Source of the DNA: Halocaridina rubra
Lineage: Eukaryota > Arthropoda > Malacostraca > Decapoda > Atyidae
Length of the DNA stretch: 64,000 bases
Assembly: GCA_037179515.1 (NCBI GenBank)
Contig: JAXCGZ010009856.1
Span: 1-64,000, forward strand
Direction: 5' to 3'
Shown here: in pieces, positions 1-64,000 of the stretch
How positions within the stretch are numbered: position 1 is the stretch's first letter
How the letters are laid out: the number at the start of each line of letters is the position of its first letter
Position numbers and translations under genes: made by a program
The notes under the pieces: model-generated
The model's input: only the letters and a program-made list of their open reading frames with translations
Databases searched by the model: none
What the model was told of the DNA's origin: nothing

Positions 1-10
1 CCTTACCCAT

Positions 11-283
11 GGCTTCATTTTAGCATTTAATTCAATTCCCAGTCTCATTCGGGCCATGAAATAATCTAATAAGCACATTACATATGTGAAAACATGAATC
101 ATTTCTTACCCCGACCGGGACTCGAACCTAGGACTTGTGATTACTAAGTCAAGGCACTACCACTACACCACAGAAGGTTAAAAGGAATCCAGCCTTATAA
201 CTTATATCTGCTATTCTTAGGAATGAACGCATTCTAACTGAATGCCACTATGTTCATATTACAGATTCCCCAACCTCACTCGC
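11..283 (-). repeat. First complete monomer in the window
   Basis: This 273-bp copy follows ten bases (ccttacccat) belonging to the end of the previous monomer. Those ten bases match a distinctive 'aagccttacccatgg' junction variant seen again at 20102, 26669, 31314, 50981, 56441 and 62724. Diagnostic changes are 'cccagtctc', 'aatctaataag', 'catttcttacc' and 'gacttgtgatt'. Confidence 0.95.
107..177 (-). pseudogene. tRNA-like segment of the first monomer
   Basis: The 71-nt length, A box and B box are all intact. The D stem has G-T-G-C in place of G-C-G-C because the CpG of 'ggcgctacc' is changed to CA ('ggcactacc'); the pair remains possible as G:U. The hairpin arm reads GACTTG rather than GACTTA, costing one pair in the displaced anticodon stem. 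Confidence 0.8.
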
Positions 284-2010
284 GGCTTCATTTTAGCATT
301 TAATTCAATTCCCAATCTCATTCGGGCCATAAAATAATCTGCTAAGCACATTACATATGTGAAAACATGAATCATTTTTTACCCCGACTGGGACTCGAAC
401 CTAGGACTTAAGATAACTAAGTCAAGGCGCTACCACTACACCACAGAGGGTTAAAAGGAATCCAACCTTGTAGCTTATATCTGCTATACTTAGGAATAAC
501 AGCATTCTAATTGAATGCCACTGTGCTCATATTACAGATTCCCCAACCTCACTCGTGGCTTTATTTTAGCATTTAATTCAATTCCAATCTCATTCGAGCT
601 ATAAAATAATCTATTAAGCACATTTCATATGTGAAAACATGAATCATTTTTTACCCCTACCGGGACTCGATCCTAGTACTTATGATTACTAAGTCAAGGC
701 GCTACCACTACACCACAGAAGGTTAAAAGGAATCCAACCTTATAGCTTATATATGCTATACTTAGGAATGAACGCATTCTAACTGAATGCCACTATGTTC
801 ATATTACAGATTTCCCAACCTCACTCGTGGCTTCATTTTAGCATTTAATTCAATTCCCAATCTCATTCGGGCCATGAAATAATCTATTAAGCACATTACA
901 TAAGTGAAAACATGAATCATATTTTACCCCGACGGGGACTCGAACCTAGGACTTGTGATTACTAAGTCAAGGCACTACCACTACACCATAGAAGGTTAAA
1001 AGGAATCCAACCTTATAGCTTATATCTGTTATACTTAGGAATGAATGCATTCTAACTAAATGCCACTATAATCATAATACAGATTCCCCAACCTCACTCG
1101 TGGCTTCATTTTAGCATTTAAGTCAATTCCCAAGCTCATTCGGGCCATGAAATAATCTATTAAGCAAATTACATATGTGAAAACATGAAATATTTTTTAC
1201 ACCGACCGGGACTCGAACCTAGGATTTATGATTACTAAGTCAAGGCACTACCACTACACCACAGAAGCTTAAAATTAATCCAACCTTATAATTTATATCT
1301 GCTATACTTAGGAATGGACGCATTCTAACTGAATGCCACTATAATGCTCATATTACAGATTCCCCAACCTCACTCGTGGCTTCATTTTAGCATTTAATTC
1401 AATTCCCAATCTCATTCGGGCCATGAAATAATCTATTAAGCACATTACATATGTGAAAACATGAATCATTTTTCACCCCGACCGGGACTCGAACCTAGAA
1501 CTTATGATTACTAAGTCAAGGCACTACCACTACACCACAGAAGCTTAAAAGGAATCCAACCTTATAGCTTATATCTGCTATACTTAGGAAGAAACGCATT
1601 CTAACTGAATGCCACTATGTTCATATTACAAATTCCCCAACCTCACTCATGGCATCATTTTAGCATTTAATTCAATTCCAAATCTCATTCGGGCCATGAA
1701 ATAATCTGTTAAGCACATTACATATGTGAAAACATGAATCATTTTTTACTTCGACCGGGACTCGAACCTAGGACTTATGATTACTAAGTCAAGGCGCTAC
1801 CACTACACCACAGAAGGTTAAAAGGAATCCAACCTTATAGCTTATATCTGCTATACTTAGGAATGAACGCATTCTAACTGAATGCCACTATGTTCATATT
1901 ACAGATTCCCCAACCTCACTCATGGCTTCATTTTAGCATTTAATTCAATTCCCAATCTCATTCGGACCATGAAATAATCTATTAAGCACATTACATATGT
2001 GAAAACATGA
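278..2010. repeat. Higher-order block, first copy of the ~25-monomer pair
   Basis: An ordered series of marked monomers runs as follows: 'cgcggc', then 'ctttatt' with 'catttcat', 'cataagtg' with 'catagaagg', 'atttaagtc' with 'caaattac', 'tcacc' with 'tagaactt', 'ggaagaaacg', 'catggcatc' with 'ttacttcg', and 'cggaccatg'. The same order reappears from 7112, offset 6834-6835 bp. The two copies are clearly diverged. Confidence 0.8.
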
Positions 2011-7111: not shown

Positions 7112-8845
7112 CACTCGCGGCTTCATTTTAGCATTTAATTCAATTCCCATTCTCATTCGGGCCATAAAATAATCTGTTAAGCACATTACATATGTGAAAA
7201 CATGAATCATTTTTTACCCCGACTGGGACTCGAACCTAGGACTTATGATTACTAAGTCAAGGCGCTACCACAACACAACAAAAGGTTAAAAGGAATCCAA
7301 CCTTGTAGCTTATATCTGCTATACTTAGGAATAACCGCATTCTAATTGAATGCCACTGTGTTCATATTACAGATTCCCCAACCTCACTCGTGGCTTTATT
7401 TTAGCATTTAATTCAATTCCAATCTCATTCGAGCCATAAAATAATCTATTAAGCACATTTCATATGTGAAAACATGAATCATTTTTTACCCCGACCGGGA
7501 CTCGAACCTAGGACTTATGATTACTAAGTCAAGGCGCTACCACTACACCACAGAAGGTTAAAAGGAATCCAACCTTATAGCTTATATATGCTATACTTAG
7601 GAATGAACGCATTCTAACTGAATGCCACTATGTTCATATTACAGATTTCCCAACCTCACTCGTGGCTTCATTTTAGCATTTAATTCAATTCCCAATCTCA
7701 TTCGGGCCATGAAATAATCTATTAAGCACATTACATAAGTGAAAACATGAATCATATTTTACCCCGACGGGGACTCGAACCTAGGACTTGTGATTACTAA
7801 TTCAAGGCGCTACCACTACACCATAGAAGGTTAAAAGGAATCCAACCTTATAGCTTATATCTGTTATACTTAGGAATGAATGCATTCTAACTAAATGCCA
7901 CTATGTTCATAATACAGATTCCCCAACCTCACTCGTGGCTTCATTTTAGCATTTAAGTCAATTCCCAATCTCATTCGGTCCATGAAATAATCTATTAAGC
8001 AAATTATATATGTGAAAACATGAAATATTTTTTTCACCGACTGGGACTCGAACCTAGGATTTATGATTACTAAGTCAAGGCACTACCACTACACCACAGA
8101 AGCTTAAAAGGAATCCAACCTTATAATTTATATCTGCTATACTTAGGAATGAACGCATTCCAACTGAATGCCACTATAATGTTCATATTACAGATTCCCC
8201 AACCTCACTCGTGGCTTCATTTTAGCATTTAATTCAATTCCCAATCTCATTCAGGCCATGAAATAATCTTTTAAGCACATTACATATGTGAAAACATGAA
8301 TCATTTTTCACCCCGACCGGGACTCGAACCTAGAACTTATGATTACTAAGTCAAGGCACTACCACTACACCACAGAAGCTTAAAAGGAATCCAACCTTAT
8401 AGCTTATATCTGCTATACTTAGGAAGAAACGCATTCTAACTGAATGCCACTATGTTCATATTACAGATTCCCCAACCTCACTCATGGCATCATTTTAGCA
8501 TTTAATTCAATTCCCAATCTCATTCGGGCCATGAAATAATCTATTAAGCACATTACATATGTGAAAACATGAATCATTTTTTACTTCGACCGGGACTCGA
8601 ACCTAGGACTTATGATTACTAAGTCAAGGCGCTACCACTACACCACAGAAGGTTAAAAGGAATCCAACCTTATAGCTTATATCTGCTATACTTAGGAATG
8701 AACGCATTCTAACTGAATGCCACTATGTTCATATTACAGATTCCCCAACCTCACTCGTGGCTTCATTTTAGCATTTAATTCAATTCCCAATCTTCTTCGG
8801 ACCATGAAATAATCTATTAAGCACATTACATATGTGAAAACATGA
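7112..8845. repeat. Higher-order block, second copy of the ~25-monomer pair
   Basis: The marker order is the same as in 278-2010. The 'cgcggc' marker lies exactly 6834 bp after its partner. Beyond about 8.8 kb the offset grows by one monomer: the 'aaccctgacaggg' marker at 9392 pairs with 2285, 7107 bp away, showing gain or loss of one whole unit. Confidence 0.8.
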
Positions 8846-8854
8846 ATTATTTTT

Positions 8855-11295: not shown

Positions 11296-11296
11296 G

Positions 11297-12582: not shown

Positions 12583-13003
12583 GGCTTCATTTTAGCATTT
12601 AATTCAATTCCCAATCTCATTCGATCCATGAAATAATCTATTAAGCACATTACATATGTGAAAACATGAATCATTTTTTACCCCAACCGGACTCGAACCT
12701 AGGACTTATGATTACTAAGCCAAGGCGCTACCACTACACCACAGAAGGTTAAAAGGAATCCAACCTTATAGCTTATATCTGTCTATTAAGCACATTACAT
12801 ATGTGAAAACATGAATCATTTTTTACCCCGACCGGGACTCGAACCTAGGACTTATGATTACTAAGTCAAGGCGCTACCACTACACCACAGAAGCTTAAAA
12901 GGAATCCAACCTTATAGCTTATATCGGCTATACTTAGGAATGAACGCATCCTAACTGAATGCCACTATAATGTTCATATTACAGATTCCACAACCTCAAT
13001 CGT
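12583..13003. repeat. Monomer pair with a 127-bp internal deletion
   Basis: Two phase markers are 421 bp apart instead of about 548. At 12779-12784 the sequence passes directly from 'ttatatctg' to 'tctattaag', skipping about 127 bases that normally run from 'ctatacttagg' to 'gaaataa'. The short monomer is therefore about 146 bp. The deletion removes body sequence only; the tRNA-like segments on both sides are kept. It is the only deletion of this size I found. Confidence 0.92.
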
Positions 13004-25209: not shown

Positions 25210-25952
25210 AAGAATCCAACCTTATAGCTTATATCTGCTATACTTAGGAATGAATGCATTCTAACTGAATACCACTATGTTTATATTACAGATTCCCCAG
25301 CCTCACTCGTTGCTTCATTTTAGCATTTAATTCAATTCCCAATCTCATTCAGGCCATGAAATAATCTATTAAGCACATTACATATGTGAAAACATGAATC
25401 ATTTTTTACCCCGACCGGGACTCGTACCTAGGACTTATGATTACTAAGCCAAGGCGCTACCACTACACCACAGAAGGTTAAAAGGAATCCAACCTTATAG
25501 CTTATATCTGCTATACTTAGGAATGAACTCATTCTAACTGAATGCCACTAAGTTCATATTACAGATTCCCCAACCTCACTCGTGGCTTCATTTTAGCATT
25601 TAATTCAATTCCCAATCTCATTCGGGCCATGAAATAATCTATTAAGCACATTACTAATATGAAAACATGAATCATTTCTTACCCTGACAGGGACTCGAAC
25701 CTAGTACTCATGATTACTAAGTCAAGGCACTACCACTACACCACAGAAGGTTAAAAGGAATCCAACCTTATAGCTTATATCTGCTATACTTAGGAATGAA
25801 CGCATTCAAACTGAATGCCACTATGTTCATATTACAGATGCCCCAACCTCACTCGTGGCTTCATTTTAGCATTTAATTCAATTCCCAATCTCATTCGGGC
25901 CATGAAATAATCTATTAAGCACATTACATATGTGAAAACATGTATCATTTTT

Positions 25953-28900
25953 TACACGGACCGGGACTCGAACCTAGGACTTATGATTACTAAGTCAAGG
26001 CACTACCACTACACCACAGAAGGTTAAAAGGAATCCAACCTTATAGCTTATATCTGCCATACTTAGGAATGAACGCATTCTAACTGAATGCCACTATAAT
26101 GTTCATATTACAGATTCCCCAACCTCATTCGTGGCTTCATTTTAGCATTTATTTCAATTCCCAATCTCATTCGGGCCATGAAATGATCTATTAAGTACAA
26201 TACATATGTGAAAACATGAATCATTTCTTACCCCGACCGTTACTCGAACCTAGGACTTATGATTACTAAGTCAAGGCGCTACCACTACACCACAGAAGGT
26301 TAAAAGGAATCCAACCTTATAGCTTATATCTGCTATACTTAGGAATGAATGCATTCTAACTGAATGCCACTATGTTCATATGACAGATTCCCCAACCTCA
26401 CTCGTGGTTTCATTTTAGCATTTAATTCAATTCCCAATCTCACTCGGGCCATGAAATAATCTATTAAGCACATTACATATGTGAAAACATGAATCATTTT
26501 TTACCCCGCCCGGAACTCGAACCTAGGACTTGTGATTACTATGTCAAGGCGCTACCACTACACCACAGAAGGTTAAAAGGAATCCAACCTTATAGCTTAT
26601 ATCTGCTATACTTAGGAATGAACGCATTTTAACTGAATGCCACTATGTTCATATTACAGATTCCAAAGCCTTACCCATGGCTTCATTTTAGCATTTAATT
26701 CAATTCCCAATCTCATTCGGGCCATGAAATAATCTGTTAAGCACATTACATATGTGAAAAAATGAATCATTTCTTACCCCGACCGGGACTCGAACCTAGG
26801 ACTTATGATTACTAAGTCAAGGCACTACCACTACACCACAGAAGGTTAAAAGGAATCCAACCTTATAGCTTATATCTGCTATACTTTGGAATGAACGCAT
26901 TCTAACTGAATGCCACTATGTTCATATTACAGATTCCCCAACCTCACTAGCGGCTTCATTTTAGCATTTAATTCAATTCCCATTCTCATTCGGGCCATAA
27001 AATAATCTGTTAAGCACATTACATATGTGAAAACATGAATCATTTTTTACCCCGACTGGGACTCGAACATAGGACTTATGATTACTAAGTCAAGGCGCTA
27101 CCACTACACCACAGAAGGTTAAAAGGAATCCAACCTTGTAGCTTATATCTGCTATACTTAGGAATAACCGCATTCTAATTGAATGCCACTGTGTTCATAT
27201 TACATATTCCCCAACCTCACTCGTGGCTTCATTTTAGCATTTAATTCAATTCCAATCTCATTCGAGCCATAAAATAATCTATTAAGCACATTTCATATGT
27301 GAAAACATGAATCATTTTTTACCCCGACTGGGACTCGAACCTAGGACTTATGATTACTAAGTCAAAGCGCTACCACTACACCACAGAAGGTTAAAAGGAA
27401 TCCAACCTTATAGCTTATATATGCTATACTTAGGAATGAACGCATTCTAACTGAATGCCACTATGTTCATATTACAGATTTCCCAACCTCAATCGTGGCT
27501 TCATTTTAGCATTTAATTCAATTCCCAATCTCATTCGGGCCATGAAATAATCTATTAAGCACATTACATAAGTGAAAACATGAATCATATTTTACCCCGA
27601 CCGGGACTCGAACCTAGGACTTGTGATTACTAAGTCAATGCGCTACCACTACACCATAGAAGGTTAAAAGGAATCCAACCTTATAGCTTATATCTGTTAT
27701 ACTTAGGAATGAATGCATTCTAACTAAATGCAACTATGTTCATAATACAGATTCCCCAACCTCACTCGTGGCTTCATTTTAGCATTTAAGTCAATTCCCA
27801 ATCTCATTCGGGCCATGAAATAATCTATTAAGCAAATTACATATGTGAAAACATGAAATATTTTTTACACCGACCGGGACTCGAACCTAGGACTTATGAT
27901 TACTAAGTCAAGGCACTACCACTACACCACAGAAGCTTAAAAGGAATCCAACCTTATAATTTACATCTGCTATACTTAGGAATGAACGCATTCTAACTGA
28001 ATGCCACTATAATGTTCATATTACAGATTCCCCAACCTCACTCGTGGTTTCATTTTAGCATTTAATTCAATTCCCAATCTCATTCGGGCCATGAAATAAT
28101 CTATTAAGCACATTACATATGTGAAAACATGAATCATTTTTCACCCCGACCGGGACTCGAACCTAGAACTTATGATTACTAAGTCAAGGCACTACCACTA
28201 CACCACAGAAGCTTAAAAGGAATCCAACCTTATAGCTTATATCTGCTATACTTAGGAAGAAACGCATTCTAACTGAATGCCACTATGTTCATATTACAGA
28301 TTCCCCAACCTCACTCATGGCATCATTTTAGCATTTAATTCAATTCCCAATCTCATTCGGGCCATGAAATAATCTATTAAGCACATTACATATGTGAAAA
28401 CATGAATCATTTTTCACTTCGACCGGGACTCGAACCTAGGACTTATGATTACTAAATCAAGGCGCTACCACTACACCACAGAAGGTTAAAAGGAATCCAA
28501 CCTTATAGCTTATATCTGCTATACTTAGGAATGAATGCATTCTAACTGAATACCACTATGTTTATATTACAGATTCCCCAGCCTCACTCGTTGCTTCATT
28601 TTAGCATTTAATTCAATTCCCAATCTCATTCGGGCCATGAAATAATCTATTAAGCACATTACATATGTGAAAACATGAATCATTTTTTACCAAAACCGGG
28701 ACTCGAACCTAGGGCTTTTGATTACTAAGTCAAGGCTCTACCACTACACCACAAAAGGTTAAAAGGAATCCAACCTAAAAGCTTACATCTGCTATACTTA
28801 GGAATGAACGCATTCTAACTGAATGCCACTATGTTCATATTACAGATTCCCCAAACTAACTCGTGGCTTCATTTTAGCATTTAATTCAATTCCCAATCTC

Positions 28901-30597
28901 ATTCGGGCCATGAAATAATCTATTAAGCACATTACATATGTGAAAACATGAATCATATTTTACCCCGACCGGGACTCGAACCTAGGACTTATGATTACTA
29001 AGTCAAGGCGCTAACACTACACCACAGAAGGTTAAAAGGAATCCAACCTTATAGCTTATATCTGCTATACTTAGGAATGACCGCATTCTAACTGAATGCC
29101 ACTATGTTCATATTACAGATTCCCCAACCTCACTCGTGGCTTCATTTTAGCATTTAATTCAATTCCCAATCTCATTCGGGCCATGAAACAATCTATTAAG
29201 CACATTACATATATGAAAACATGAATCGTTTTTAACCCTGACAGGGACTCGAACCTAGGACTTATGATTACTAAGTCAAGGCGCTACCACTACACCACAG
29301 AAGGTTAAAAGGAATCCAACCTTATAACTTATATCTGCTATACTTAGGAATGAACGCATTCTAACTGAATGCCACTATGTTCATATTACAGATTCCCCAA
29401 CCTCATTCGTGGCTTCATTTTAGCATTTAATTCAATTCCCAATCTCATTCGGGCCATGAAGTAATCTATTAAGTACATTACATATGTGAAAACATGAATC
29501 ATTTTTTACCCCGACCGGGACGCGAACCTAGGACTTATGATTACTAAGTCAAGGCGCTACCACTACACCACAGAAGGTTAAAAGGAATCCAACCTTATAG
29601 CTTATTTCTGCTATACTTAGGAATGAACGCATTCTAACTGAATGCCACTATGTTCATATTACAGATTCCCCAACCTCACTCGTGGCTCCATTTTAGCATT
29701 TAATTCAATTCCCAATCTCATTCGGGCCATGAAATAATCTATTAGGCACATTACATATGTGAAAACATGAATCATTTTTTACCAAAACCGGGACTCGAAC
29801 CTAGGGCTTATGATTACTAAGTCAAGGCGCTACCACTACACCACAGAAGGTTAAAAGGAAGACAACCTTGTATCTTATATCTGCTATACTTAGGAATGAA
29901 CGCATTCTAACTGAATGCCACTATGTTCATATTACAGATTCCCCAACCTCACTCGTGCCTTCATTTTAGTATTTAATTCAATTCCCAATCTCATTCGATC
30001 CATGAAATAATCTATTAAGCACATTACATATGTGAAAACATGAATCATTTTTTATCCCAACCGGACTCGAACCTAGGACTTATGATTACTAAGTCAAGGC
30101 GCTACCACTACACCACAGAAGCTTAAAAGGAATCCAACCTTATAGCTTATATCTGCTATACTTAGGAATGAACGCATTCTAACTGAATGCCACTATGTTC
30201 ATATTACAGATTCCCCAACCTCACTCGTGGCTTCATTTTAGCATTTAATTCAATTCCCAATCTCATTCGGGCCATGAAATAATCTATTAAGCACATTACA
30301 TATGTGAAAACATGAATCATATCTTACCCTGACCGGGACTCGAACCTAGTACTTATGATTACTAAGTCAAGGCGCTACCACTACACCACAGAAGGTTAAA
30401 AGGAATCCAACCTTATAGCTTATATCTGCTATACTTAGGAATGAATGCATTCAAACTGAATGCCACTATGTTCATATTACAGATTCCCCAACCTCACTCC
30501 TGGCTTCATTTTAGCATTTAATTCAATTCCCAATCTCATTCGGGACATGAAATAATCTATTAAGCACATTACATATGTGAAAACATGTATCATTTTT
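25953..30597. repeat. 17-monomer higher-order unit, copy 1 (4645 bp)
   Basis: Markers at 25953 (tacacgg), 26056 (tgccat), 26669 (ccttaccc), 26946 (actagcgg), 27163 (aataaccg), 27784 (atttaag) and 29226 (tcgttttt) all recur exactly 4645 bp later. A constant offset across the whole unit means no net indel between the copies. The few differences are mostly single substitutions. Confidence 0.95.
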
Positions 30598-33500
30598 TAC
30601 ACGGACCGGGACTCGAACCTAGGACTTATGATTACTAAGTCAAGGCACTACCACTACACCACAGAAGGTTAAAAGGAATCCAACCTTATAGCTTATATCT
30701 GCCATACTTAGGAATGAACGCATTCTAACTGAATGCCACTATAATGTTCATATTACAGATTCCCCAACCTCATTCGTGGCTTCATTTTAGCATTTATTTC
30801 AATTCCCAATCTCATTCGGGCCATGAAATGATCTATTAAGTACAATACATATGTGAAAACATGAATCATTTCTTACCCCGACCGGGACTCGAACCTAGGA
30901 CTTATGATTACTAAGTCAAGGCGCTTCCACTACACCACAGAAGGTTAAAAGGAATCCAACCTTATAGCTTATATCTGCTATACTTAGGAATGAATGCATT
31001 CTAACTGAATGCCACTATGTTCATATGACAGATTCCCCAACCTCACTCGTGGTTTCATTTTAGCATTTAATTCAATTCCCAATCTCACTCGGGCCATGAA
31101 ATAATCTATTAAGCACATTACATATGTGAATACATGAATCATTTTTTACCCCGCCCGGAACTCGAACCTAGGACTTGTGATTACTAAGTCAAGGCGCTAC
31201 CACTACACCACAGAAGCTTAAAAGGAATCCAACCTTATAGCTTATATCTGCTATACTTAGGAATGAACGCATTTTAACTGAATGCCACTATGTTCATATT
31301 ACAGATTCCAAAGCCTTACCCATGGCTTCATTTTAGCATTTAATTCAATTCCCAATCTCATTCGGATAATGAAATAATCTATTAAGCACATTACATATGT
31401 GAAAACATGAATCATTTCTTACCCCGACCGGGACTCGAACCTAGGACTTATGATTACTAAGTCAAGGCACTACCACTACACCACAGAAGGTTAAAAGGAA
31501 TCCAACCTTATAGCTTATATCTGCTATACTTAGGAATGAACGCATTCTAACTGAATGCCACTATGTTCATATTACAGATTCCCCAACCTCACTAGCGGCT
31601 TCATTTTAGCATTTAATTCAATTCCCATTCTCATTCGGGCCATAAAATAATCTGTTAAGCACATTACATATGTGAAAACATGAATCATTTTTTACCCCGA
31701 CTGGGACTCGAACATAGGACTTATGATTACTAAGTCAAGGCGCTACCACTACACCACAGAAGGTTAAAAGGAATCCAACCTTGCAGCTTATATCTGCTAT
31801 ACTTAGGAATAACCGCATTCTAATTGAATGCCACTGTGTTCATATTACAGATTCCCCAACCTCACTCGTGGCTTCATTTTAGCATTTAATTCAATTCCAA
31901 TCTCATTCGAGCCATAAAATAATCTATTAAGCACATTTCATATGTGAAAACATGAATCATTTTTTACCCCGTCTGGGACTCGAACCTAGGACTTATGATT
32001 ACTAAGTCAAGGCGCTACCACTACACCACAGAAGGTTAAAAGGAATCCAACCTTATAGCTTATATATGCTATACTTAGGAATGAACGCATTCTAACTGAA
32101 TGCCACTATGTTCATATTACAGATTTCCCAACCTCACTCGTGGCTTCATTTTAGCATTTAATTCAATTCCCAATCTCATTCGGGCCATGAAATAATCTAT
32201 TAAGCACATTACATAAGTGAAAACATGAATCATATTTTACCCCGACCGGGACTCGAACCTAGGACTTGTGATTACTAAGTCAAGGCGCTACCACTACACC
32301 ATAGAAGGTTAAAAGGAATCCAACCTTATAGCTTATATCTGTTATACTTAGGAATGAATGCATTCTAACTAAATGCAACTATGTTCATAATACAGATTCC
32401 CCAACCTCACTCGTGGCTTCATTTTAGCATTTAAGTCAATTCCCAATCTCATTCGGGCCATGAAATAATCTATTAAGCAAATTACATATGTGAAAACATG
32501 AAATATTTTTTACACCGACCGGGACTCGAACCTAGGACTTATGATTACTAAGTCAAGGCACTACCACTACACCACAGAAGCTTAAAAGGAATCCAACCTT
32601 ATAATTTACATCTGCTATACTTAGGAATGAACGCATTCTAACTGAATGCCACTATAATGTTCATATTACAGATTCCCCAACCTCACTCGTGGTTTCATTT
32701 TAGCATTTAATTCAATTCCCAATCTCATTCGGGCCATGAAATAATCTATTAAGCACATTACATATGTGAAAACTTGAATCATTTTTCACCCCGACCGGGA
32801 CTCGAACCTAGAACTTATGATTACTAAGTCAAGGCACTACCACTACACCACAGAAGCTTAAAAGGAATCCAACCTTATAGCTTATATCTGCTATACTTAG
32901 GAAGAAACGCATTCTAACTGAATGCCACTATGTTCATATTACAGATTCCCCAACCTCACTCATGGCATCATTTTAGCATTTAATTCAATTCCCAATCTCA
33001 TTCGGGCCATGAAATAATCTATTAAGCACATTACATATGTGAAAACATGAATCATTTTTTACTTCGACCGGGACTCGAACCTAGGACTTATGATTACTAA
33101 ATCAAGGCGCTACCACTACACCACAGAAGGTTAAAAGGAATCCAACCTTATAGCTTATATCTGCTATACTTAGGAATGAATGCATTCTAACTGAATACCA
33201 CTATGTTTATATTACAGATTCCTCAGCCTCACTCGTTGCTTCATTTTAGCATTTAATTCAATTCCCAATCTCATTCGGGCCATGAAATAATCTATTAAGC
33301 ACATTACATATGTGAAAACATGAATCATTTTTTACCAAAACCGGGACTCGAACCTAGGGCTTATGATTACTAAGTCAAGGCGCTACAACTACACCACAAA
33401 AGGTTAAAAGGAATCCAACCTAAAAGCTTACATCTGCTATACTTAGGAATGAACGCATTCTAACTGAATGCCACTATGTTCATATTACAGATTCCCCAAA

Positions 33501-35242
33501 CTAACTCGTGGCTTCATTTTAGCATTTAATTCAATTCCCAATCTCATTCGGGCCATGAAATAATCTATTAAGCACATTACATATGTGAAAACATGAATCA
33601 TATTTTACCCCGACCGGGACTCGAACCTAGGACTTATGATTACTAAGTCAAGGCGCTAACACTACACCACAGAAGGTTAAAAGGAATCCAACCTTATAGC
33701 TTATATCTGCTATACTTAGGAATGACCGCATTCTAACTGAATGCCACTATGTTCATATTACAGATTCCCCAACCTCACTCGTGGCTTCATTTTAGCATTT
33801 AATTCAATTCCCAATCTCATTCGGGCCATGAAACAATCTAATAAGCACATTACATATATGAAAACATGAATCGTTTTTAACCCTGACAGGGACTCGAACC
33901 TAGGACTTATGATTACTAAGTCAAGGCGCTACCACTACACCACAGAAGGTTAAAAGGAATCCAACCTTATAACTTATATCTGCTATACTTAGGAATGAAC
34001 GCATTCTAACTGAATGCCACTATGTTCATATTACAGATTCCCCAACCTCATTCGTGGCTTCATTTTAGCATTTAATTCAATTCCCAATCTCATTCGGGCC
34101 ATGAAGTAATCTATTAAGTACATTACATATGTGAAAACATGAATCATTTTTTACCCCGACCGGGACGCGAACCTAGGACTTATGATTACTAAGTCAAGGC
34201 GCTACCACTACACCACAGAAGGTTAAAAGGAATCCAACCTTATAGCTTATTTCTGCTATACTTAGGAATGAACGCATTCTAACTGAATGCCACTATGTTC
34301 ATATTACAGATTCCCCAACCTCACTCGTGGCTTCATTTTAGCATTTAATTCAATTCCCAATCTCATTCGGGCCATGAAATAATCTATTAGGCACATTACA
34401 TATGTGAAAACATGAATCATTTTTTACCAAAACCGGGACTCGAACCTAGGGCTTATGATTACTAAGCCAAGGCGCTACCACTACACCACAGAAGGTTAAA
34501 AGGAAGACAACCTTGTATCTTATATCTGCTATACTTAGGAATGAACGCATTCTAACTGAATGCCACTATGTTCATATTACAGATTCCCCAACCTCACTCG
34601 TGGCTTCATTTTAGTATTTAATTCAATTCCCAATCTCATTCGATCCATGAAATAATCTATTAAGCACATTACATATGTGAAAACATGAATCATTTTTTAT
34701 CCCAACCGGACTCGAACCTAGGACTTATGATTACTAAGTCAAGGCCCTACCACTACACCACAGAAGCTTAAAAGGAATCCAACCTTATAGCTTATATCTG
34801 CTATACTTAGGAATGAACGCATTCTAACTGAATGCCACTATGTTCATATTACAGATTCCCCAACCTCACTCGTGGCTTCATTTTAGCATTTAATTCAATT
34901 CCCAATCTCATTCGGGCCATGAAATAATCTATTAAGCACATTACATATGTGAAAACATGAATCATATCTTACCCTGACCGGGACTCGAACCTAGTACTTA
35001 TGATTACTAAGTCAAGGCGCTACCAATACACCACAGAAGGTTAAAAGGAATCCAACCTTATAGCTTATATCTGCTATACTTAGGAATGAATGCATTCAAA
35101 CTGAATGCCACTATGTTCATATTACAGATTCCCCAACCTCACTCGTGGCTTCATTTTAGCATTTAATTCAATTCCCAATCTCATTCGGGACATGAAATAA
35201 TCTATTAAGCACATTACATATGTGAAAACATGTATCATTTTT
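30598..35242. repeat. 17-monomer higher-order unit, copy 2 (4645 bp)
   Basis: This directly follows copy 1 and matches it along its length. Matching continues only to about 35300; there 'gaaggtt' and 'tgccatac' in copy 1's continuation face 'gaagctt' and 'tgctatac'. Confidence 0.95.
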
Positions 35243-37979
35243 TACACGGACCGGGACTCGAACCTAGGACTTATGATTACTAAGTCAAGGCACTACCACT
35301 ACACCACAGAAGCTTAAAAGGAATCCAACCTTATAGCTTATATCTGCTATACTTAGGAATGAACTCATTCTAACTGAATGCCACTATGTTCATATTACAG
35401 ATTCCCCAACCTCGCTCATGGCATCATTTTAGCATTTAATTTAATTCCCAATCTCATTCGGGCCATGAAATAATCTATTAAGCACATTACATATATGAAA
35501 ACATGAATTGTTTTTTACCCCGACCGGGACTCGAACCTAGGAATTATGATTACTAAGTCAAGGCGCTACCACTACACCACAAAAGGTTAAAAGGAATCCA
35601 ACCTAAAAGCTTACATCTGCTATACTTAGGAATGAACGCATTCTAACTGAATGCCACTATGTTCATATTACAGATTCCCCAAACTAACTCGTGGCTTCAT
35701 TTTAGCATTTAATTCAATTCCCAATCTCGTTCGGGCCATGAAATAATCTATTAAGCACATTACATATGTGAAAACATGAATCATATTTTACCACGACCGG
35801 GACTCGAACCTAGGACTTATGATTACTAAGTCAAGGCGCTAACACTACACCACAGAAGGTTAAAAGGAATCCAACCTTATAGCTTATATCGGCTATACTT
35901 AGGAATGACCGCATTCTAACTGAATGCCACTATGTTGATATTACAGATTCCCCAACCTCACTCGTGGCTTCATTTTAGCATTTAATTCAATTCCCAATCT
36001 CATTCGGGCCATGAAATAATCTAATAAGCACATTACATATGTGAAAACATGAATCGTTTTTAACCCTGACAAGGACTCGAACCTAGGACTTATGATTACT
36101 AAGTCAAGGCGCTACCACTACACCACAGAAGGTTAAAAGGAATCCAACCTTATAACTTATATCTGCTATACTTAGAAATGAACGCATTCTAACTGAATGC
36201 CACTATGTTCATATTACAGATTCCCCAATCTCATTCGTGGCTTCATTTTAGCATTTAATTCAGTTCCCAATCTCATTCGGGCCACGAAGTAATCTATTAA
36301 GTACATTACATATGTGAAAACATGAATCATTTTTTACCCCTACCGGGACTCGAACCTAGGACTTATGATTACTAAGTCAAGGCGCTACCACTACACCACA
36401 GAAGGTTAAAAGGAATCCAACCTTATAGCTTATATCTGCTATACTTAGGAATGAACGCATTCTAACTGAATGCCACTATGTTCATATTACAGATTCCCCA
36501 ACCTCACTCGTGGCTTCATTTTAGCATTTAATTCAATTCCCAATCTCATTCGGGACATGAAATAATCTATTAGGCACATTACATATGTGAAAACATGAAT
36601 CATTTTTTACCAAAACCGGGACTCGAACCTAGGGCTAATGATTACTAAGTCAAGGCCCTACCACTACACCACAGAAGGTTAAAAGGAATCCAACCTTGTA
36701 GCTTATATCTGCTATACTTAGGAATGAACGCATTCTAACTGAATGCCACTATGTTCATATTACAGATTCCCCAATCTCATTCGTGGCTTCATTTTAGCAT
36801 TTAATTCAATTCCCAATCTCATTCGATCCATGAAATAATCTATTAAGCACATTACATATGTGAAAACATGAATCATTTTTTACCCCTACCGGGACTCGAA
36901 CCTAGGACTTGTGATTACTAAGTCAAGGCGCTACCACTACACCATAGAAGGTTAAAAGGAATCCAACCTTATAGCTTATATCTGTTATACTTAGGAATGA
37001 ATGCATTCTAACTAAATGCAACTTTGTTCATAATACACATTCCCCAACCTCACTCGTGGCTTCATTTTAGCATTTAAGTCAATTCCCAATCTCATTCGGG
37101 CCATGAAATAATCTCTTAAGCACAATACATATGTGAAAACATGAATCATTTTTTACCCCGACCTGGTACTCGAACCTAGGACTTATGATTACTAAGTCAA
37201 GGCACTACCACTACACCACAGAAGCTTGAAAGGAATCCAACCTTATAATTTACATCTGCTATACTTAGGAATGAACGCATTCTAACTGAATGCCACTATA
37301 ATGTTCATATTACAGATTCCCCAACCTCACTCGTGGTTTCATTTTAGCATTTAATTCAATTCCCAATCTCATTCGGGCCATGAAATAATCTATTAAGCAC
37401 AATACATATGTGAAAACATGAATCATTTTTTACCCCGACCTGGTACTCGAACCTAGGACTTATGATTACTAAGTCAAGGCGCTACCACTACACCACTGAA
37501 GGTTAAAAGGAATCCAACCTTATAGCTTATATCTGTTATACTTAGGAATGAATGCATTCTAACTGATGGCCACTATGTTCATATTACAGATTCCCCAACC
37601 TCACTCGTGGCTTCATTTTAGCATTTAATTCAATTCCCAATCTCATTCGGGCCATGAAATAATCTATTAAGCACAATACATATGTGAAAACATGAATCAT
37701 TTTTTACCCCGACCTGGTACTCGAACCTAGGACTTATGATTACTAAGTCAAGGCGCTACCACTACACCACAGAAGGTTAAAAGGAATCCAACCTTATAGC
37801 TTATATCTGTTATACTTAGGAATGAATGCATTCTAACTGAATGCCACTATGTTCATATTACAGATTCCCCAGCCTCACTCGTGGCTTCATTTTAGCTTTT
37901 AAATCAATTCCCAATCTCATTCGGGCCATGAAATAATCTATTAAGCAAATTACATATGTGAAACCATGAAATTTTTTTT

Positions 37980-50800: not shown

Positions 50801-53759
50801 ATGAATCATTTTTTACCCCGCCCGGAACTCGAACCTAGGACTTGTGATTACTAAGTCAAGGCGTTACCACTACACCACAGAAGGTTAAAAGGAATCCAAC
50901 CTTATAGCTTATATCTGCTATACTTAGGAATGAATGCATTCTAACTGAATGCCACTATGTTCATATTACAGATTCTAAAGCCTTACCCATGGCTTCATTT
51001 TATCATTTAATTCAATTCCCAATCTCATTCGGGCCATGAAATAATCTGTTAAGCACATTACATATGTGAAAACATGAATCATTTCTTACCCCGACCGGGA
51101 CTCGAACCTAGGACTTATGATTACTAAGTCAAGGCACTACCACTACACCACAGAAGGTTAAAAGGAATCCAACCTTATAGCTTATATCTGCTATACTTAG
51201 GAATGAACGCATTCTAACTGAATGCCACTATGTTCATAATACAGATTCCCCAACCTCACTAGCGGCTTCATTTTAGCATTTAATTCAATTCCCAATCTCA
51301 TTCGGGCCATAAAATAATCTGTTAAGCACATTACATATGTGAAAACATGAATCATTTTTTACCCCGACTGGGACTCGAACCTAGGACTTATGATTACTAA
51401 ATCAAGGCGCTACCACTACACCACAGAAGGTTAAAAGGAATCCAACATTATAGCTTGTATCTGCTATACTTAGGAATGAATGCATTCTAACTGAATGCCA
51501 CTATGTTGATATTACAGATTTCCCAACCTCACTCGTGGCTTTATTTTAGCATTTAATTCAATTCCAATCTCATTCGAGCCATAAAATAATCTATTAAGCA
51601 CATTTCATATGTGAAAACATGAATCATTTTTTACCCCGACCGGGACTCGAACCTAGGACTTATGATTACTAAGTCAAGGCGCTACCACTACACCACAGAA
51701 GGTTAAAAGGAATCCAACCTTATAGCTTATATATGCTATACCTAGGAATGAACGCATTCTAACTGAATGCCACTATGTTCATATTACAGATTTCTCAACC
51801 TCACTCGTGGCTTCATTTTAGCATTTAATTCAATTCCCAATCTCATTCGCGCCATGAAATAATCTATTAAGCACATTACATAAGTGAAAACATGAATCAT
51901 ATTTTACCCCGACCGGGACTCGAACCTAGGACTTGTGATTACTAAGTCAAGGCGCTACCACTACACCATAGAAGGTTAAAAGGAATCCAACCTTATAGCT
52001 TATATCTGTTATACTTAGGAATGAATGCATTCTAACTAAATGCAACTATGTTCATAATACAGATTCCCCAACCTCACTCGTGGCTTCATTTTAGCATTTA
52101 AGTCAATTCCCAATCTCATTCGGGCCATGAAATAATCTATTAAGCACATTACATATGTGAAAACATGAATCATTTTTTACTTCGACCGGGACTCGAACCT
52201 AGGACTTATGATTACTAAATCAAGGCGCTACCACTACACCACAGAAGGTTAAAAGGAATCCAACCTTATAGCTTATATCTGCTATACTTAGGAATGAATG
52301 CATTCTAACTGAATACCACTATGTTTATATTACAGATTCCCCAGCCTCACTCGTTGCTTCATTTTAGCATTTAATTCAATTCCCAATCTCATTCGGGCCA
52401 TGAAATAATCTATTAACCACATTACATATGTGAAAACATGAATTATTTTTTACCAAAACCGGGACTCGAACCTAGGGCTTATGATTACTAAGTCAAGGCG
52501 CTACCACTACACCACAAAAGGTTAAAAGGAATCCAACGTAAAAGCTTACATCTGCTATACTTAGGAATGAACGCATTCTAACTGAATGCCACTATGTTCA
52601 TATTACAGATTCCCCAAACTAACTCGTGGCTTCATTTTAGCATTTAATTCAATTCCCAATCTCATTCGGGCCATGAAATAATCTATTAAGCACATTACAT
52701 ATGTGAAAACATGAATCATATTTTACCCCGACCGGGACTCGAACCTAGGACTTATGATTACTAAGTCAAGGCGCTAACACTACACCACAGAAGGTTAAAA
52801 GGAATCCAACCTTATAGCTTATATCTGCTATACTTAGGAATGACCGCATTCTAACTGAATGCCACTATGTTCATATTACAGATTCCCCAAACTCACTCGT
52901 GGCTTCATTTTAGCATTTAATTCAATTCCCAATCTCATTCGGGCCATGAAACAATCTAATAAGCACATTACATATATGAAAACATGAATCGTTTTTAACC
53001 CTGACAGGGACTCGAACCTAAGACTTATGATTACTAAGTCAAGGCGCTACCACTACACCACAGAAGGTTAAAAGGAATCCAACCTTATAACTTATATCTG
53101 CTATACTTAGAAATGAACGCATTCTAACTGAATGCCACTATGTTCATATTACAGATTCCCTAACCTCATTCGTGGCTTCATTTTAGCATTTAATTCAATT
53201 CCCAATCTCATTCGGGCCATGAAGTAATCTATTAAGTATATTACATATGTGAAAACATGAATCATTTTTTACCCCGACCGGTACGCGAACCTAGGACTTA
53301 TGATTACTAAGTCAAGGCGCTACCACTACACCACAGAAGGTTAAAAGGAATCCAACCTTATAGCTTATTTCTGCTATACTTAGGAATGAACGCATTCTAA
53401 CTGAATGCCACTATGTTCATATTACAGATTCCCCAACCTCACTCGTGGCTTCATTTTAGCATTTAATTCAATTCCCAATCTCATTCGGGCCATGAAATAA
53501 TCTATTAGGCACATTACATATGTGAAAACATGAATCATTTTTTTACAAAAACCGGGACTCGAACCTAGGGCTTATGATTACTAAGTCAAGGCGCTACCAC
53601 TACACCACAGAAGGTTAAAAGGAAGACAACCTTGTATCTTATATCTGCTATACTTAGGAATGAACGCATTCTAACTGAATGCCACTATGTTCATATTACA
53701 GATTCCCCAACCTCACTCGTGGCTTCATTTTAGCATTTAATTCAATTCCCAATCTCATT

Positions 53760-55550: not shown

Positions 55551-57953
55551 ATCTGCTATACTTAGGAATGAACGCATTCAAACTGAATGCCAGTATGTTC
55601 ATATTACAGATGCCCCAACCTCACTCGTGGCTTCATTTTAGCATTTAATTCAATTCCCAATCTCATTCGGGCCATGAAATAATCTAATAAGCACATTACA
55701 TATGTGAAAACATGTATCATTTTTTACACGGACCGGGACTCGAACCTAGGACTTATGATTACTAAGTCAAGGCACTACCACTACACCACAGAAGCTTAAA
55801 ATGAATCCAACCTTATATCTTATACCTGCTATACTTAGAAATGAACGCATTCTAACTGAATGCCACTATAATGTTCATATTACAGATTCCCCAACCTCAT
55901 TCGTGGCTTAATTTTAGCATTTATTTCAATTCCCAATCTCATTCGGGCCATGAAATGATCTATTAAGCACAATACATATGTGAAAACATGAATCATTTCT
56001 TACCCCGACCGGGACTCGAACCTAGGACTTATGATTACTAAGTCAAGGCGCTACCACTACACCACAGAAGGTTAAAAGGAATCCAACCTTATAGCTTATA
56101 TCTGCTATACTTAGGAATGAATGCATTCTAACTGAATGCCAGTATGTTCATATTACAGATTCCCCAACCTCACTCGTGGTTTCATTTTAGCATTTAATTC
56201 AATTCCCAATCTCATTCGGGCCATGAAATAATCTATTAAGGACATTACATATGTGAAAACATGAATCATTTTTTACCCCGACCGGGACTCGAACCTAGGA
56301 CTTGTGATTACTAAGTCATGGCACTACCACTACACCACAGAAGGTTAAAAGGAATCCAACCTTATAGCTTATATCTGCTATACTTAGGAATGAACGCATT
56401 CTAACTGAATGCCACTATGTTCATATTACAGATTCCAAAGCCTTACCCATGGCTTCATTTTAGCATTTAATTCAATTCCCAATCTCATTCGGGCCATGAA
56501 ATAATCTGTTAAGGACATTACATATGTGAAAACATGAATCATTTCTTACCCCGACCGGGACTCGAACCTAGGACTTATGATTACTAAGTCAAGGCACTAC
56601 CACTACACCACAGAAGGTTAAAAGGAATCCAACCTTATAGCTTATATCTGCTATACTTAGGAATGAACGCATTCTAACTGAATGCCACTATGTTCATATT
56701 ACAGATTCCCCAACCTCACTAGCGGCTTCATTTTAGCATTTAATTCAATTCCCATTCTCATTCGGGCCATAAAATAATCTGTTAAGCACATTACATATGT
56801 GAAAACATGAATCATTTTTTACCCCGACTGGGATTCGAACCTAGGACTTATGATTACTAAGTCAAGGCGCTACCACTACACCACAGAAGGTTAAAAGGAA
56901 TCCAATCTTGTAGCTTATATCTGCTATACTTAGAAATAACGGCATTCTAATTGAATGCCACTGTGTTCATATTACAGATTTCCCAACCTCACTCGTGGCT
57001 TTATTTTAGCATTTAATTCAATTCCAATCTCATTCGAGCCATAAAATAATCTATTAAGCACATTTCATATGTGAAAACATGAATCATTTTTTACCCCTAC
57101 CGGGACTCGAACCTAGGACTTATGATTACTAAGTCAAGGCGCTACCACTACACCACAGAAGGTTAAAAGGAATCCAACCTTATAGCTTATATATGCTATA
57201 CTTAGGAATGAACGCATTCTAACTGAATGCCACTATGTTCATATTACAGATTTCCCAACCTCACTCGTGGCTTCATTTTAGCATTTAATTCAATTCCCAA
57301 TCTCATTCGGGCCATGAAATAATCTATTAAGCACATTACATATATGAAAACATGAATCATATTTTACCCCGACCGGGACTCGAGCCTAGGACTTGTGATT
57401 ACTAAGTCAAGGCGCTACCACTACACCATAGAAGGTTAAAAGGAATCCAACCTTATAGCTTATATCTGTTATACTTAGGAATGAATGCATTCTAACTAAA
57501 TGCAACTATGTTCATAATACAGATTCCCCAACCTCACTCGTGGCTTCATTTTAGCATTTAAGTCAATTCCCAATCTCATTCGGGCCATGAAATAATCTAT
57601 TAAGCAAATTACATATGTGAAAACATGAAATATTTTTTACACCGACCGGGACTCGAACCTAGGACTAATGATTACTAAGTCAAGGCACTACCACTACACC
57701 ACAGAAGCTTAAAAGGAATCCAACCTTATAATTTACATCTGCTATACTTAGGAATGAACGCATTCTAACTGAATGCCACTATAATGTTCATATTACAGAT
57801 TCCCCAACCTCACTCGTGGTTTCATTTTAGCATTTAATTCAATTCCCAATCTTATTCGGGCCATGAAATAATCTATTAAGCACATTACATATGTGAAAAC
57901 ATGAATCATTTTTCACCCCGACCGGGACTCGAACCTAGAACTTATGATTACTA

Positions 57954-58287: not shown

Positions 58288-58399
58288 TGCTATACTTAGG
58301 AAGAAACGCATTCTAACTGAATGCCACTATGTTCATATTACAGATTCCCCAACCTCACTCATGGCATCATTTTAGCATTTAATTCAATTCCCAATCTCA

Positions 58400-60200: not shown

Positions 60201-63200
60201 TACTTAGGAATGAACGCATTCTAACTGAATGCCACTATGTTCATATTACAGATTCCCCAACCTCACTCGTGGCTTCATTTTAGCATTTAATTCAATTCCC
60301 AATCTCATTCGGGACATGAAATAATCTATTAGGCACATTACATATGTGAAAACATGAATCATTTTTTACCAAAACCGGGACTCGAACCTAGGGCTAATGA
60401 TTACTAAGTCAAGGCACTACCACTACACCACAGAAGGTTAAAAGGAATCCAACCTTGTAGCTTATATCTGCTATACTTAGGAATGAACGCATTCTAACTG
60501 AATGCCACTATGTTCATATTACAGATTCCCCAATCTCATTCGTGGCTTCATTTTAGCATTTAATTCAATTCCCAATCTCATTCGATCCATGAAATAATCT
60601 ATTAAGCACATTACATATGTGAAAACATGAATCATTTTTTACCCCTACCGGGACTCGAACCTAGGACTTATGATTACTAAGTCAAGGCGCTACCACTACA
60701 CCACAGAAGGTTAAAAGGAATCCAACCTTATAGCTTATATGTGCTATGCTTAGGAATGAACGCATTCTAACTGAATGCCACTATGTTCATATTACAGATT
60801 TCCCAACCTCACTCGTGGCTTCATTTTAGCATTTAATTCAATTCCCAATCTCATTCGGGCCATGAAATAATCTATTAAGCACATTACATAAGTGAAAACA
60901 TGAATCATATTTTACCCCGACCGGGACTCGAACCTAGGACTTGTGATTACTAAGTCAAGGCGCTGCTACTACACCATAGAAGGTTAAAAGGAATCCAACC
61001 TTATAGCTTATATCTGTTATACTTAGGAATGAATGCATTCTAACTAAATGCAACTTTGTTCATAATACAGATTCCCCAACCTCACTCGTGGCTTCATTTT
61101 AGCATTTAAGTCAATTCCCAATCTCATTCGGGCCATGAAATAATCTATTAAGCAAATTACATATGTGAAAACATGAAATATTTTTTACACCGACCGGGAC
61201 TCGAACCTAGGACTTATGATTACTAAGTCAAGGCACTACCACTACACCACAGAAGCTTAAAAGGAATCCAGCCTTATAATTTACATCTGCTATACTTAGG
61301 AATGAACGCATTCTAACTGAATGCCACTATAATGTTCATATTACAGATTCCCCAACCTCACTCGTGGTTTCATTTTAGCATTTAATTCAATTCCCAATCT
61401 CATTCGGGCCATGAAATAATCTATTAAGCACATTACATATGAGAAAACATGAATCATTTTTCACCCCGACCGGGACTCGAACCTAGAACTTATGATTACT
61501 AAGTCAAGGCACTACCACTACACCACAGAAGCTTAAAAGGAATCCAACCTTATAGCCTATATCTGCTATACTTAGGAAGAAACGCATTCTAACTGAATGC
61601 CACTATGTTCATATTACAGATTCCCCAACCTCACTCATGGCATCATTTTAGCATTTAATTCAATTCCCAATCTCATTCGGGCCATGAAATAATCTATTAA
61701 GCACATTACTAATATGAAAACATGAATCATTTCTTACCCTGACCGGGACTCGCACCTAGTACTTATGATTACTAAGTCAAGGCGCTACCACTACACCACA
61801 GAAGGTTAAAAGGAATCCAACCTTATAGCTTATATCTGCTATACTTAGGAATGAACGCATTCAAACTGAATGCCAGTATGTTCATATTACAGATGCCCCA
61901 ACCTCACTCGTGGCTTCATTTTAGCATTTAATTCAATTCCCAATCTCATTCTGGCCATGAAATAATCTAATAAGCACATTACATATGTGAAAACATGTAT
62001 CATTTTTTACACGGACCGGGACTCGAACCTAGGACTTATAATTACTAAGTCAAGGCACTACCACTACACCACAGAAGCTTAAAAGGAATCCAACCTTATA
62101 TCTTATATCTGCTATACTTAGGAATGAATGCATTCTAACTGAATGCCACTATAATGTTCATATTACAGATTCCCCAACCTCATTCGTGGCTTCATTTTAG
62201 CATTTATTTCAATTCCCAATCTCATTCGGGCCATGAAATGATCTATTAAGCACAATACATATGTGAAAACATGAATCATTTCTTACCCCGACCGGGACTC
62301 GAACCTAGGACTTATGATTACTAAGTCAAGGCGCTACCACTACACCACAGAAGGTTAAAAGGAATCCAACCTTATAGCTTATATCTGCTATACTTAGGAA
62401 TGAATGCATTCTAACTGAATGCCACTATGTTCATATTACAGATTCCCCAACCTCACTCGTGGTTTCATTTTAGCATTTAATTCAATTCCCAATCTCATTC
62501 GGGCCATGAAATAATCTATTAAGGACATTACATATGTGAAAACATGAATCATTTTTTACCCCGACCGGGACTCGAACCTAGGACTTGTGATTACTAAGTC
62601 AAGGCACTACCACTACACCACAGAAGGTTAAAAGGAATCCAACCTTATAGCTTATATCTGCTATACTTAGGAATGAACGCATTCTAACTGAATGCCACTA
62701 TGTTCATATTACAGATTCCAAAGCCTTACCCATGGCTTCATTTTAGCATTTAATTCAATTCCCAATCTCATTCGGGCCATGAAATAATCTGCTAAGGACA
62801 TTACATATGTGAAAACATGAATCATTTCTTACCCCGACCGGGACTCGAACCTAGGACTTATGATTACTAAGTCAAGGCACTACCACTACACCACAGAAGG
62901 TTAAAAGGAATCCAACCTTATAGCTTATATCTGCTATACTTAGGAATGAACGCATTCTAACTGAATGCCACTATGTTCATATTACAGATTCCCCAACCTC
63001 ACTAGCGGCTTCATTTTAGCATTTAATTCAATTCCCATTCTCATTCGGGCCATAAAATAATCTGTTAAGCACATTACATATGTGAAAACATGAATCATTT
63101 TTTACCCCGACTGGGATTCGAACCTAGGACTTATGATTACTAAGTCAAGGCGCTACCACTACACCACAGAAGGTTAAAAGGAATCCAATCTTGTAGCTTA

Positions 63201-63823
63201 TATCTGCTATACTTAGAAATAACGGCATTCTAATTGAATGCCACTGTGTTCATATTACAGATTTCCCAACCTCACTCGTGGCTTTATTTTAGCATTTAAT
63301 TCAATTCCAATCTCATTCGAGCCATAAAATAATCTATTAAGCACATTTCATATGTGAAAACATGAATCATTTTTTACCCTTACCGGGACTCGAACCTAGG
63401 ACTTATGATTACTAAGTCAAGGCGCTACCACTACACCACAGAAGGTTAAAAGGAATCCAACCTTATAGCTTATATATGCTATACTTAGGAATGAACGCAT
63501 TCTAACTGAATGCCACTATGTTCATATTACAGATTTCCCAACCTCACTCGTGGCTTCATTTTAGCATTTAATTCAATTCCCAATCTCATTCGGGCCATGA
63601 AATAATCTATTAAGCACATTACATATATGAAAACATGAATCATATTTTACCCCGACCGGGACTCGAGCCTAGGACTTGTGATTACTAAGTCAAGGCGCTA
63701 CCACTACACCATAGAAGGTTAAAAGGAATCCAACCTTATAGCTTATATCTGTTATACTTAGGAATGAATGCATTCTAACTAAATGCAACTATGTTCATAA
63801 TACAGATTCCCCAACCTCACTCG

Positions 63824-64000
63824 TGGCTTCATTTTAGCATTTAAGTCAATTCCCAATCTCATTCGGGCCATGAAATAATCTATTAAGCAAATTACATATG
63901 TGAAAACATGAAATATTTTTTACACCGACCGGGACTCGAACCTAGGACTTATGATTACTAAGTCAAGGCACTACCACTACACCACAGAAGCTTAAAAGGA
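63824..64000 (-). repeat. Partial monomer at the right edge
   Basis: This is the first 177 bp of a 'atttaagtc' and 'caaattac' subfamily monomer, cut by the window end within 'cttaaaagga'. The array continues beyond the window. Confidence 0.97.
63921..63991 (-). pseudogene. Last tRNA-like segment in the window
   Basis: This is a complete 71-nt copy with intact A and B boxes. Its acceptor ends read GCTTCTG and TCGGTGT because it belongs to the 'aagctt' and 'acaccg' subfamilies. The host monomer starts at 63824 and is cut by the window edge after 177 bp. Confidence 0.8.

Follow-up and report, generated by a model that had tools for sequence, protein, structure and literature searches.

The 64,000-nucleotide stretch of the genome of the decapod Halocaridina rubra analysed here (contig JAXCGZ010009856.1, positions 1 to 64,000; hereafter the window) is a single head-to-tail array of a 273-bp satellite. 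The satellite unit carries on its minus strand a tRNA-like segment with the A and B boxes of a type 2 RNA polymerase III (Pol III) promoter. The same unit occurs elsewhere in the genome as dispersed copies that have two recurrent ends, (AT)n flanks and, in nearly all cases, a single inversion with an inner joint that varies from copy to copy; within the window, blocks of units have been duplicated. The unit may be a non-autonomous, tRNA-promoted retroelement similar to a short interspersed element (SINE), which inserts tandem RNA into (TA)n tracts and some copies of which become satellites; we place the probability of this reading at roughly one half. The dispersed, (AT)n-bounded copies are invisible from any one window, and it is because of them that the reading of the array changes.

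The tRNA-like segment corresponds to consensus positions 53-124 on the minus strand and in an example unit lies at 107..177 (minus strand, 71 positions of the consensus). In this unit the A box, TGGTGTAGTGG, is found at 160..170 (minus strand) and the B box, GGTTCGAGTCC, 31 bp from it at 118..128 (minus strand). The exact A box occurs 195 times and the exact B box 178 times on the minus strand of the window, neither is present on the plus strand, and an exact B box is separated by a gap of exactly 31 from 144 of the 195 A boxes. When only the 232 full units are considered, 192 have the exact A box, 168 the exact B box and 136 both (151 if looser definitions of the two boxes are used). The first-pass annotation of the window had described these boxes, 31 bp apart on the minus strand, in most 273-bp monomers, and this description is borne out. 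The order, orientation and spacing that it gave for the box pairs are likewise correct, whereas its figure of about 234 candidate sites for transcription factor IIIC (TFIIIC) is an overcount. Downstream of the tRNA part, at a distance of 14 bases, 226 of the 232 units have the sequence TTTT, a candidate Pol III terminator (89..92, minus strand, in the example unit). Unit position 137 (1-based; window base 94), at which dispersed copies end, is directly before GTTTT and so one base before TTTT.

The assembly that contains the window (1.18 Gb in 21,031 contigs) is fragmented and rich in (AT)n. It yields 11 hemocyanin matches and no chlorophyll a/b-binding match, and a plant origin was rejected. 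One hemocyanin frame scores 770 bits against 6l8s and 759 bits against 1hc1, both decapod proteins, with 300 bits or less for the remaining chains. CpG and CHG context, considered as a guide to plant versus animal, gave a weak signal (CG versus CHH p = 0.028; CHG p = 0.66) and was set aside. Units were counted in it using a 43-base pattern with up to two mismatches; units with more mismatches are uncounted, and the resulting numbers are lower bounds. In 2,954 matches the 3' part of the tRNA segment ends with GATTCAT (position 137) and is followed directly by (AT)n, and in 45,033 the same start continues into GTTTTCACAT, as it does in the arrays (reversed-pattern control: 0 in both cases). The sum of 47,987 units of 273 bp amounts to approximately 13 Mb, or 1.1% of the genome, with approximately 16 units for each position-137/(AT)n end. 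The 100 listed of the 2,954 position-137 ends are spread across many contigs.

The anatomy of the dispersed copies was determined at 24 loci (L050-L073), which comprise the first eight listed (L050-L057) and 16 picked along the 100 listed exact matches (L058-L073). These loci hold 26 copies; 11 that leave the stretch or adjoin N were set aside, and the architecture rests on the 15 complete copies in which both ends are visible. The search itself selected the position-137 end and its (AT)n tract; it placed no condition on the inversion, on the other end or on the (AT)n tract there. Fourteen of the 15 complete copies have a head-to-head design in which one run of units ends at position 137 and the other at position 157-170, both runs ending outward in the tRNA sense. 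The ends are unequal, such that one arm extends approximately 20-33 bp further along the unit than the other in 14 of the 15 copies. (AT)n is present within 45 bp on both sides of all 15 copies, as compared to a background in which (AT)5 is found in 641 of 5,209 45-bp stretches (12.3%). The complete copies are 145-2,028 bp in length (the upper limit reflects the length of the stretch), and even those of 145 and 194 bp retain both ends. The inner joints of the inverted copies fall at many different places, with an overlap of 1-6 bp in 9 of the 14, a proportion given without a computed chance level. One of the copies set aside (L052, 822-1136) has the same head-to-head design.

A second set of loci, not selected for ends, was drawn from among the best 40 scored of 735 candidates for a 61-base tRNA query (L009-L028, 20 stretches). 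By eye, 27 of 34 array ends in these stretches abut (AT)n, of which 13 are at position 137, 12 are at 157-170 and two are elsewhere; the remaining seven meet N, the end of the locus, an inner break or unrelated DNA. Five of the stretches (L009, L014, L018, L021 and L026) contain long single-orientation runs with no end in view, as in the window. Long (AT)n tracts are themselves very common, with 72 of at least 40 bp in the 157 kb of L009-L028 (arrays and flanks included), and crabs are known for an AT satellite. In L016, approximately 1.2 kb of unrelated DNA (7379-8567), possibly an inserted element, separates two array pieces of the same orientation.

The proposed model for the spread of the unit is as follows. 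A tRNA-derived type 2 Pol III promoter would drive the element. Each insertion would put a short tandem series of units into a (TA)n tract, in almost every case as two runs arranged head to head. Pol III termination would set the end at position 137, and the second end, at 157-170, would fall in an AT-rich stretch just past the Pol III stop. The head-to-head form would be produced by twin priming, a process known from long interspersed elements (LINEs), at both nicked (TA)n ends on one multi-unit RNA. The enzymes would be supplied by another element, such as a Penelope-like element or a LINE. Some copies would then grow into long arrays by unequal exchange, the window being one such array, and any binding of TFIIIC by the arrays would be a by-product. 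Two fixed and unequal ends, outward orientation, a single inversion with a variable joint and (AT)n on both sides fit reverse transcription primed on two strands, and it is from these features that we infer RNA-mediated movement. The more specific proposal, that an element lacking a ribozyme uses a multi-unit RNA primed from both (TA)n strands to fix the unequal ends and the head-to-head core in one step, with the insertions seeding satellites, is tentative and has somewhat less than even prospects of being correct. Two candidate features were rejected: an end-specific cap at the second end, as the end variants are also present in array interiors, and a SINE-like target-site duplication (GATTC) inside the monomer, for which the chance probability is 0.54.

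The enzymes may have a source in the host genome, where at least 27 GIY-YIG coding copies were found (150 of 589 candidates scored). GIY-YIG is part of Penelope-like elements. These copies, at L075, L074 and 25 further places, are candidate Penelope-like retroelements, and one has a 715-aa (amino acid) open frame. L075 also has a separate 385-aa frame that, by eye, is reverse-transcriptase-like.

The window itself retains signs of how such an array grows. It contains 235 units (232 full, two cut by the window ends and one truncated) across 1..64000, without interruption by other DNA and with the tRNA sense on the minus strand. The full units have a mean identity to the consensus of 96.7% (range 92.7-99.3%), and the lowest identity of any 273-bp stretch in the window is 91.9%. 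Full-unit lengths are 273 bp in 170 cases, 276 bp in 26 and 272 bp in 23; the commonest insertion, 3 bp near consensus position 251, is present in 20 units. The 26 units of 276 bp, mostly with this insertion, are scattered along the array. The truncated unit (12787..12947, minus strand) is missing 112 bp, and the array continues on both sides of it. In a block of 18 units (30449..35366, minus strand), 17 are within four bases of their counterpart 17 places along the array (copy at approximately 25804-30721), and a block of six units (62132..63771, minus strand) differs by at most two bases from the units 23 places further on (approximately 55849-57488). These block duplications, 17 and 23 places apart, are the mark of recent unequal exchange.

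Variation between loci is concentrated in one patch of the unit. The consensus sequences of 21 loci (the 20 stretches L009-L028 and the window) differ at 31 columns, 13 of which are at consensus positions 156-181 (49..74, minus strand, in the window). Thirteen variable columns in any 26-bp window were reached by 0 of 20,000 random draws. The patch overlaps the second recurrent end at 157-170. It is near-uniform within most loci, with CTTAATTGGTTA in 36 units of L014 and CTTATCTGATTA in 26 units of L009, though some loci supplied only one to four units to this count. Certain patch types are common to several loci (for CTTAATTGGTTA, L012 and L022 as well as L014), and more than one type is present within L012 and within L019. 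None of the 293 interior units of the 20 stretches has the AATAG type of the window. The arrays thus look like local expansions of one or a few founders.

A tRNA origin of the 71-nt segment, also proposed by the first-pass annotation, is supported by Rfam, ARAGORN and alignment to host tRNA genes. The window has 17 Rfam matches at E-values up to 10, all of which are to RF00005, on the minus strand and across the full 71 positions. The best of these (36881..36951, minus strand) scores 24.9 bits, and the best unit alone has an E-value of 0.0035; no unit in the window reaches the Rfam gathering score for tRNA (29 bits). ARAGORN at default stringency makes a single call (51360..51431, minus strand), without a valid anticodon, in the 232 units, as compared to 0 in 1,000 dinucleotide shuffles. 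When the threshold is lowered to 95%, 90%, 85% and 80%, the calls increase to 72, 156, 180 and 190 of the 232 units, versus 0, 2, 21 and 91 of the 1,000 shuffles, respectively. As the units are near copies of one another, this result counts as one observation and not as 156. Twenty of the 46 listed host tRNA genes were aligned to the segment, with several isotypes missing from the 20. The best score is 21, with Trp(CCA), while the maximum in 300 shuffles is 6. The mean score against the 20 genes is 12.2, as compared to 16.0 for the tRNA genes among themselves; by these alignments the segment appears tRNA-like, to a degree somewhat below that to which real tRNAs resemble each other. Thr(AGT) ranked first as the parent isotype against vertebrate-type tRNAs, but against the host genes it scores only 8, versus 21 for Trp(CCA) and 20 for Val(TAC), and the alignments single out no parent isotype.

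The tRNA likeness is above chance but decayed, the fold having decayed and the promoter part being better preserved. The predicted RNA fold of the segment is no better than that of shuffles (z = +0.54; an equal or better fold is reached by 141 of 200 shuffles). The acceptor pair 53-122 is formed in 47 of the 232 units, the pair 58-117 in 13 and the T-stem pair 101-113 in six. Pairing is not maintained across the units (3,578 paired cells versus a shuffle mean of 3,582).

Several observations weigh against a retroelement origin of the copies. No target-site duplication, poly-U end or transcript is demonstrable, and the (AT)n tracts would hide any duplication. The approximately 155 bases upstream of the tRNA part would lie outside a simple Pol III transcript that stops at TTTT, and so a multi-unit RNA would need read-through or another promoter; the weak point of the model is that it needs an RNA of several units although each unit has a terminator. 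Comparison of the unit with two of the 27 GIY-YIG loci gave no convincing match (best 27 bp, E-value 0.65), and no autonomous partner with the same ends was found in these two loci. One of the 15 complete copies (L069) is not inverted and consists of one run from position 174 to 137. Among the stretches not selected for ends, L019 has one copy with two 137 ends, L012 has a direct copy that combines a 157-170-type end with a 5' end at (TA)n, a 5' end of this kind recurs in L024, and in L020 two 157-170-type ends face each other across (AT)n. In L013, L015 and L016, an arm halts at unrelated DNA. The boxes of the promoter, finally, have no reproducible excess conservation in the window and 337 units from elsewhere. 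When raw conservation is ranked among the 273 equal-length windows of the unit, the A box comes 46th and the B box 220th across 70 units taken from short arrays.

The main rival to reverse transcription is a route that involves DNA only, in which circles or broken arrays of an ordinary satellite enter fragile (AT)n tracts by microhomology and the repair of hairpins or cruciforms produces the head-to-head form. (AT)n is prone to breakage and common (the 12.3% background given above), and both the short overlaps at 9 of the 14 inner joints, again with no computed chance level, and the homogeneity of most loci for one patch variant are consistent with such a route. Random breakage, however, predicts scattered ends, whereas the same two end zones, one per side, are found in 14 of the 15 complete copies, even in those of 145 to 194 bp. 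The DNA-only route accounts for homogeneity within loci and not for two fixed ends; it is considered unlikely, though with an appreciable share of the probability. Inverted arms, TA-rich targets and a variable interior could also be attributed to a foldback or terminal-inverted-repeat DNA transposon with internal tandem units that inserts at TA targets. The inequality of the ends, with one arm extending approximately 20-33 bp further in 14 of 15 copies, speaks against this, and a transposon of this kind is improbable. That the unit is an ordinary satellite whose dispersed copies arose by misassembly at (AT)n gaps is the least probable of the explanations and would be surprising. N runs are present in 8 of the 20 stretches L009-L028, several of them adjoining arrays or (AT)n, but the complete copies of L058-L061, L063 and L066-L068 come from contigs 75.6-270 kb long, their 2.2-kb stretches are free of N, and the same unequal pair of ends is not expected from misassembly.

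A different view of the array, and the one favoured by the first-pass annotation, is that it is kept as a TFIIIC platform, a chromatin boundary or a source of short Pol III RNA in heterochromatin. In its favour are the box order and spacing, which are right in 136 units, and the TTTT of 226 units. When conservation in the window is corrected for base and CpG composition, the two boxes taken together come 8th of 273 and the B-box core 7th. The CpG of the B box (consensus position 106) is kept in 224 of the 232 units, as compared to 140-219 for six other CpGs; in the 20 other stretches the bases of this CpG are at 97-98%, and some other CpG bases are equally high. Raw conservation in the window is not raised (A box rank 45, B box rank 150 of 273), and at 96.2% the tRNA segment falls slightly below the remainder of the unit (96.9%). 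The corrected signal also fails in a replication set of 337 full units from the 20 other stretches, scored against the window consensus, by which fixed interlocus differences register as changes (A and B boxes together rank 147, B-box core rank 73; raw ranks of 183 for the A box and 150 for the B box). The integrity of the two boxes is uncoupled, both being present in 136 units where 139 are expected (p = 0.33), and the maintenance of pairing that was looked for above is absent. Locus-variable columns are fewer in the tRNA segment (3 of 71) than in the other positions (28 of 202; p = 0.03), but p rises to 0.29 without the variable patch. The first-pass annotation had linked its proposal to a higher conservation of the boxes than of the monomer body; no such enrichment is reproducible, no selection on the boxes is shown, and maintenance of the array for TFIIIC is very improbable.

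Other features that were looked for in the window are absent. It has no open frames of 80 aa and no match with up to one mismatch to TTCGNNNNANNCGGG, the CENP-B-box motif. The unit has no match in viral contigs or GTDB genomes (exact patterns) or in plasmids and phages. Rfam microRNA models score at the head-to-head joints of L060, L061, L063 and L066. All microRNA matches are under their gathering scores, with many at head-to-head joints or in (AT)n, and these are taken as hairpin or palindrome artefacts.

Satellites with a tRNA-related promoter are a known kind of repeat, and the unit of H. rubra has their tandem form, with A and B boxes at tRNA spacing. Tandem repeats of this type in amphibians include newt PolIII/TAN (approximately 360 nt), Xenopus OAX/satellite I, Rana/polIII (approximately 250 nt) and Hydromantes Hy/polIII (approximately 200 nt) (PMC10702118), and the Hydromantes and Xenopus repeats are also tabulated in PMC9659126. 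Transcription of PolIII/TAN in vitro is reported, and the tRNA origin of Hy/polIII is called questionable (PMC10702118). The amphibian repeats resemble the window in that a tRNA-like segment forms part of a tandem unit a few hundred bases long; they differ in their hosts, as H. rubra is a decapod, and (AT)n-flanked head-to-head copies with two fixed ends are not described in the available text of PMC10702118 and PMC9659126. Closer in behaviour are the SINE-derived satellites of squamates (PMC10702118), in which a tRNA-headed SINE gives rise to tandem repeats, longer arrays and homogenisation within loci, as here. In most squamate arrays the terminal unit is longer and can be matched to the SINE as far as its terminus (PMC10702118), whereas the copies examined here include no single-unit founder SINE, 14 of the 15 complete copies being head to head. 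Arrays derived from a SINE tail are reported for frog subtelomeres (PMC10794172). The unit shares with SINEs a tRNA-related head and thousands of copies with a common 3' end (2,954 at position 137); unit-length copies with a 5' end near the tRNA start, as expected of a SINE, are not found among the 15 complete copies, of which 14 are inverted with variable inner joints.

Non-LTR (long terminal repeat) retrozymes of metazoans are also comparable, as they are short tandem repeats of approximately 300 bp and low GC content that form dimers to large multimers and are reported from crustaceans among other animals (PMC7229834). The dispersed short tandem repeats of H. rubra are likewise low in GC. 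Retrozymes are defined by a type I hammerhead ribozyme (PMC7229834); the promoter of the unit here is tRNA-like. The unit has no Rfam ribozyme match, and neither strand of its consensus has a CTGANGA sequence, the hammerhead core motif. Penelope-like elements bear terminal repeats that may be tandem or inverted, have a short one-sided extension and are often present as partial copies. The unequal ends of 14 of the 15 copies may correspond to this layout; no reverse transcriptase was seen inside the copies. Clustered B-box-type sites are shared with extra TFIIIC (ETC) loci and with the tRNA/TFIIIC boundaries of fission yeast, as described in PMC2040200 and PMC4502379. The boxes here differ in having no sign of selection relative to the rest of the unit, the weak corrected signal being confined to the window. 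The element resembles in its working a satellite-seeding SINE or a retrozyme, neither of which it matches in every defining feature. The combination found here, a tandem unit with a tRNA promoter together with (AT)n-flanked copies that are head to head and have two fixed ends, was not met in the literature on tRNA and Pol III satellites, 273-bp satellites and TFIIIC, a search that was not aimed at dispersed decapod copies.

How satellites disperse and how their arrays are founded is an open question. In H. rubra, one genome contains long arrays, many short seeds whose ends are fixed and, at one of these ends, a rapidly varying patch by which loci fall into groups, such that seeding, spread and homogenisation can be traced step by step. 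The case also serves as a warning that a satellite may owe its A and B boxes to past mobility and not to a function in TFIIIC binding. If the proposal of a multi-unit RNA is right, every insertion would be a ready seed for a new satellite, and one element family would supply both the dispersal and the founding of approximately 1% of a decapod genome.

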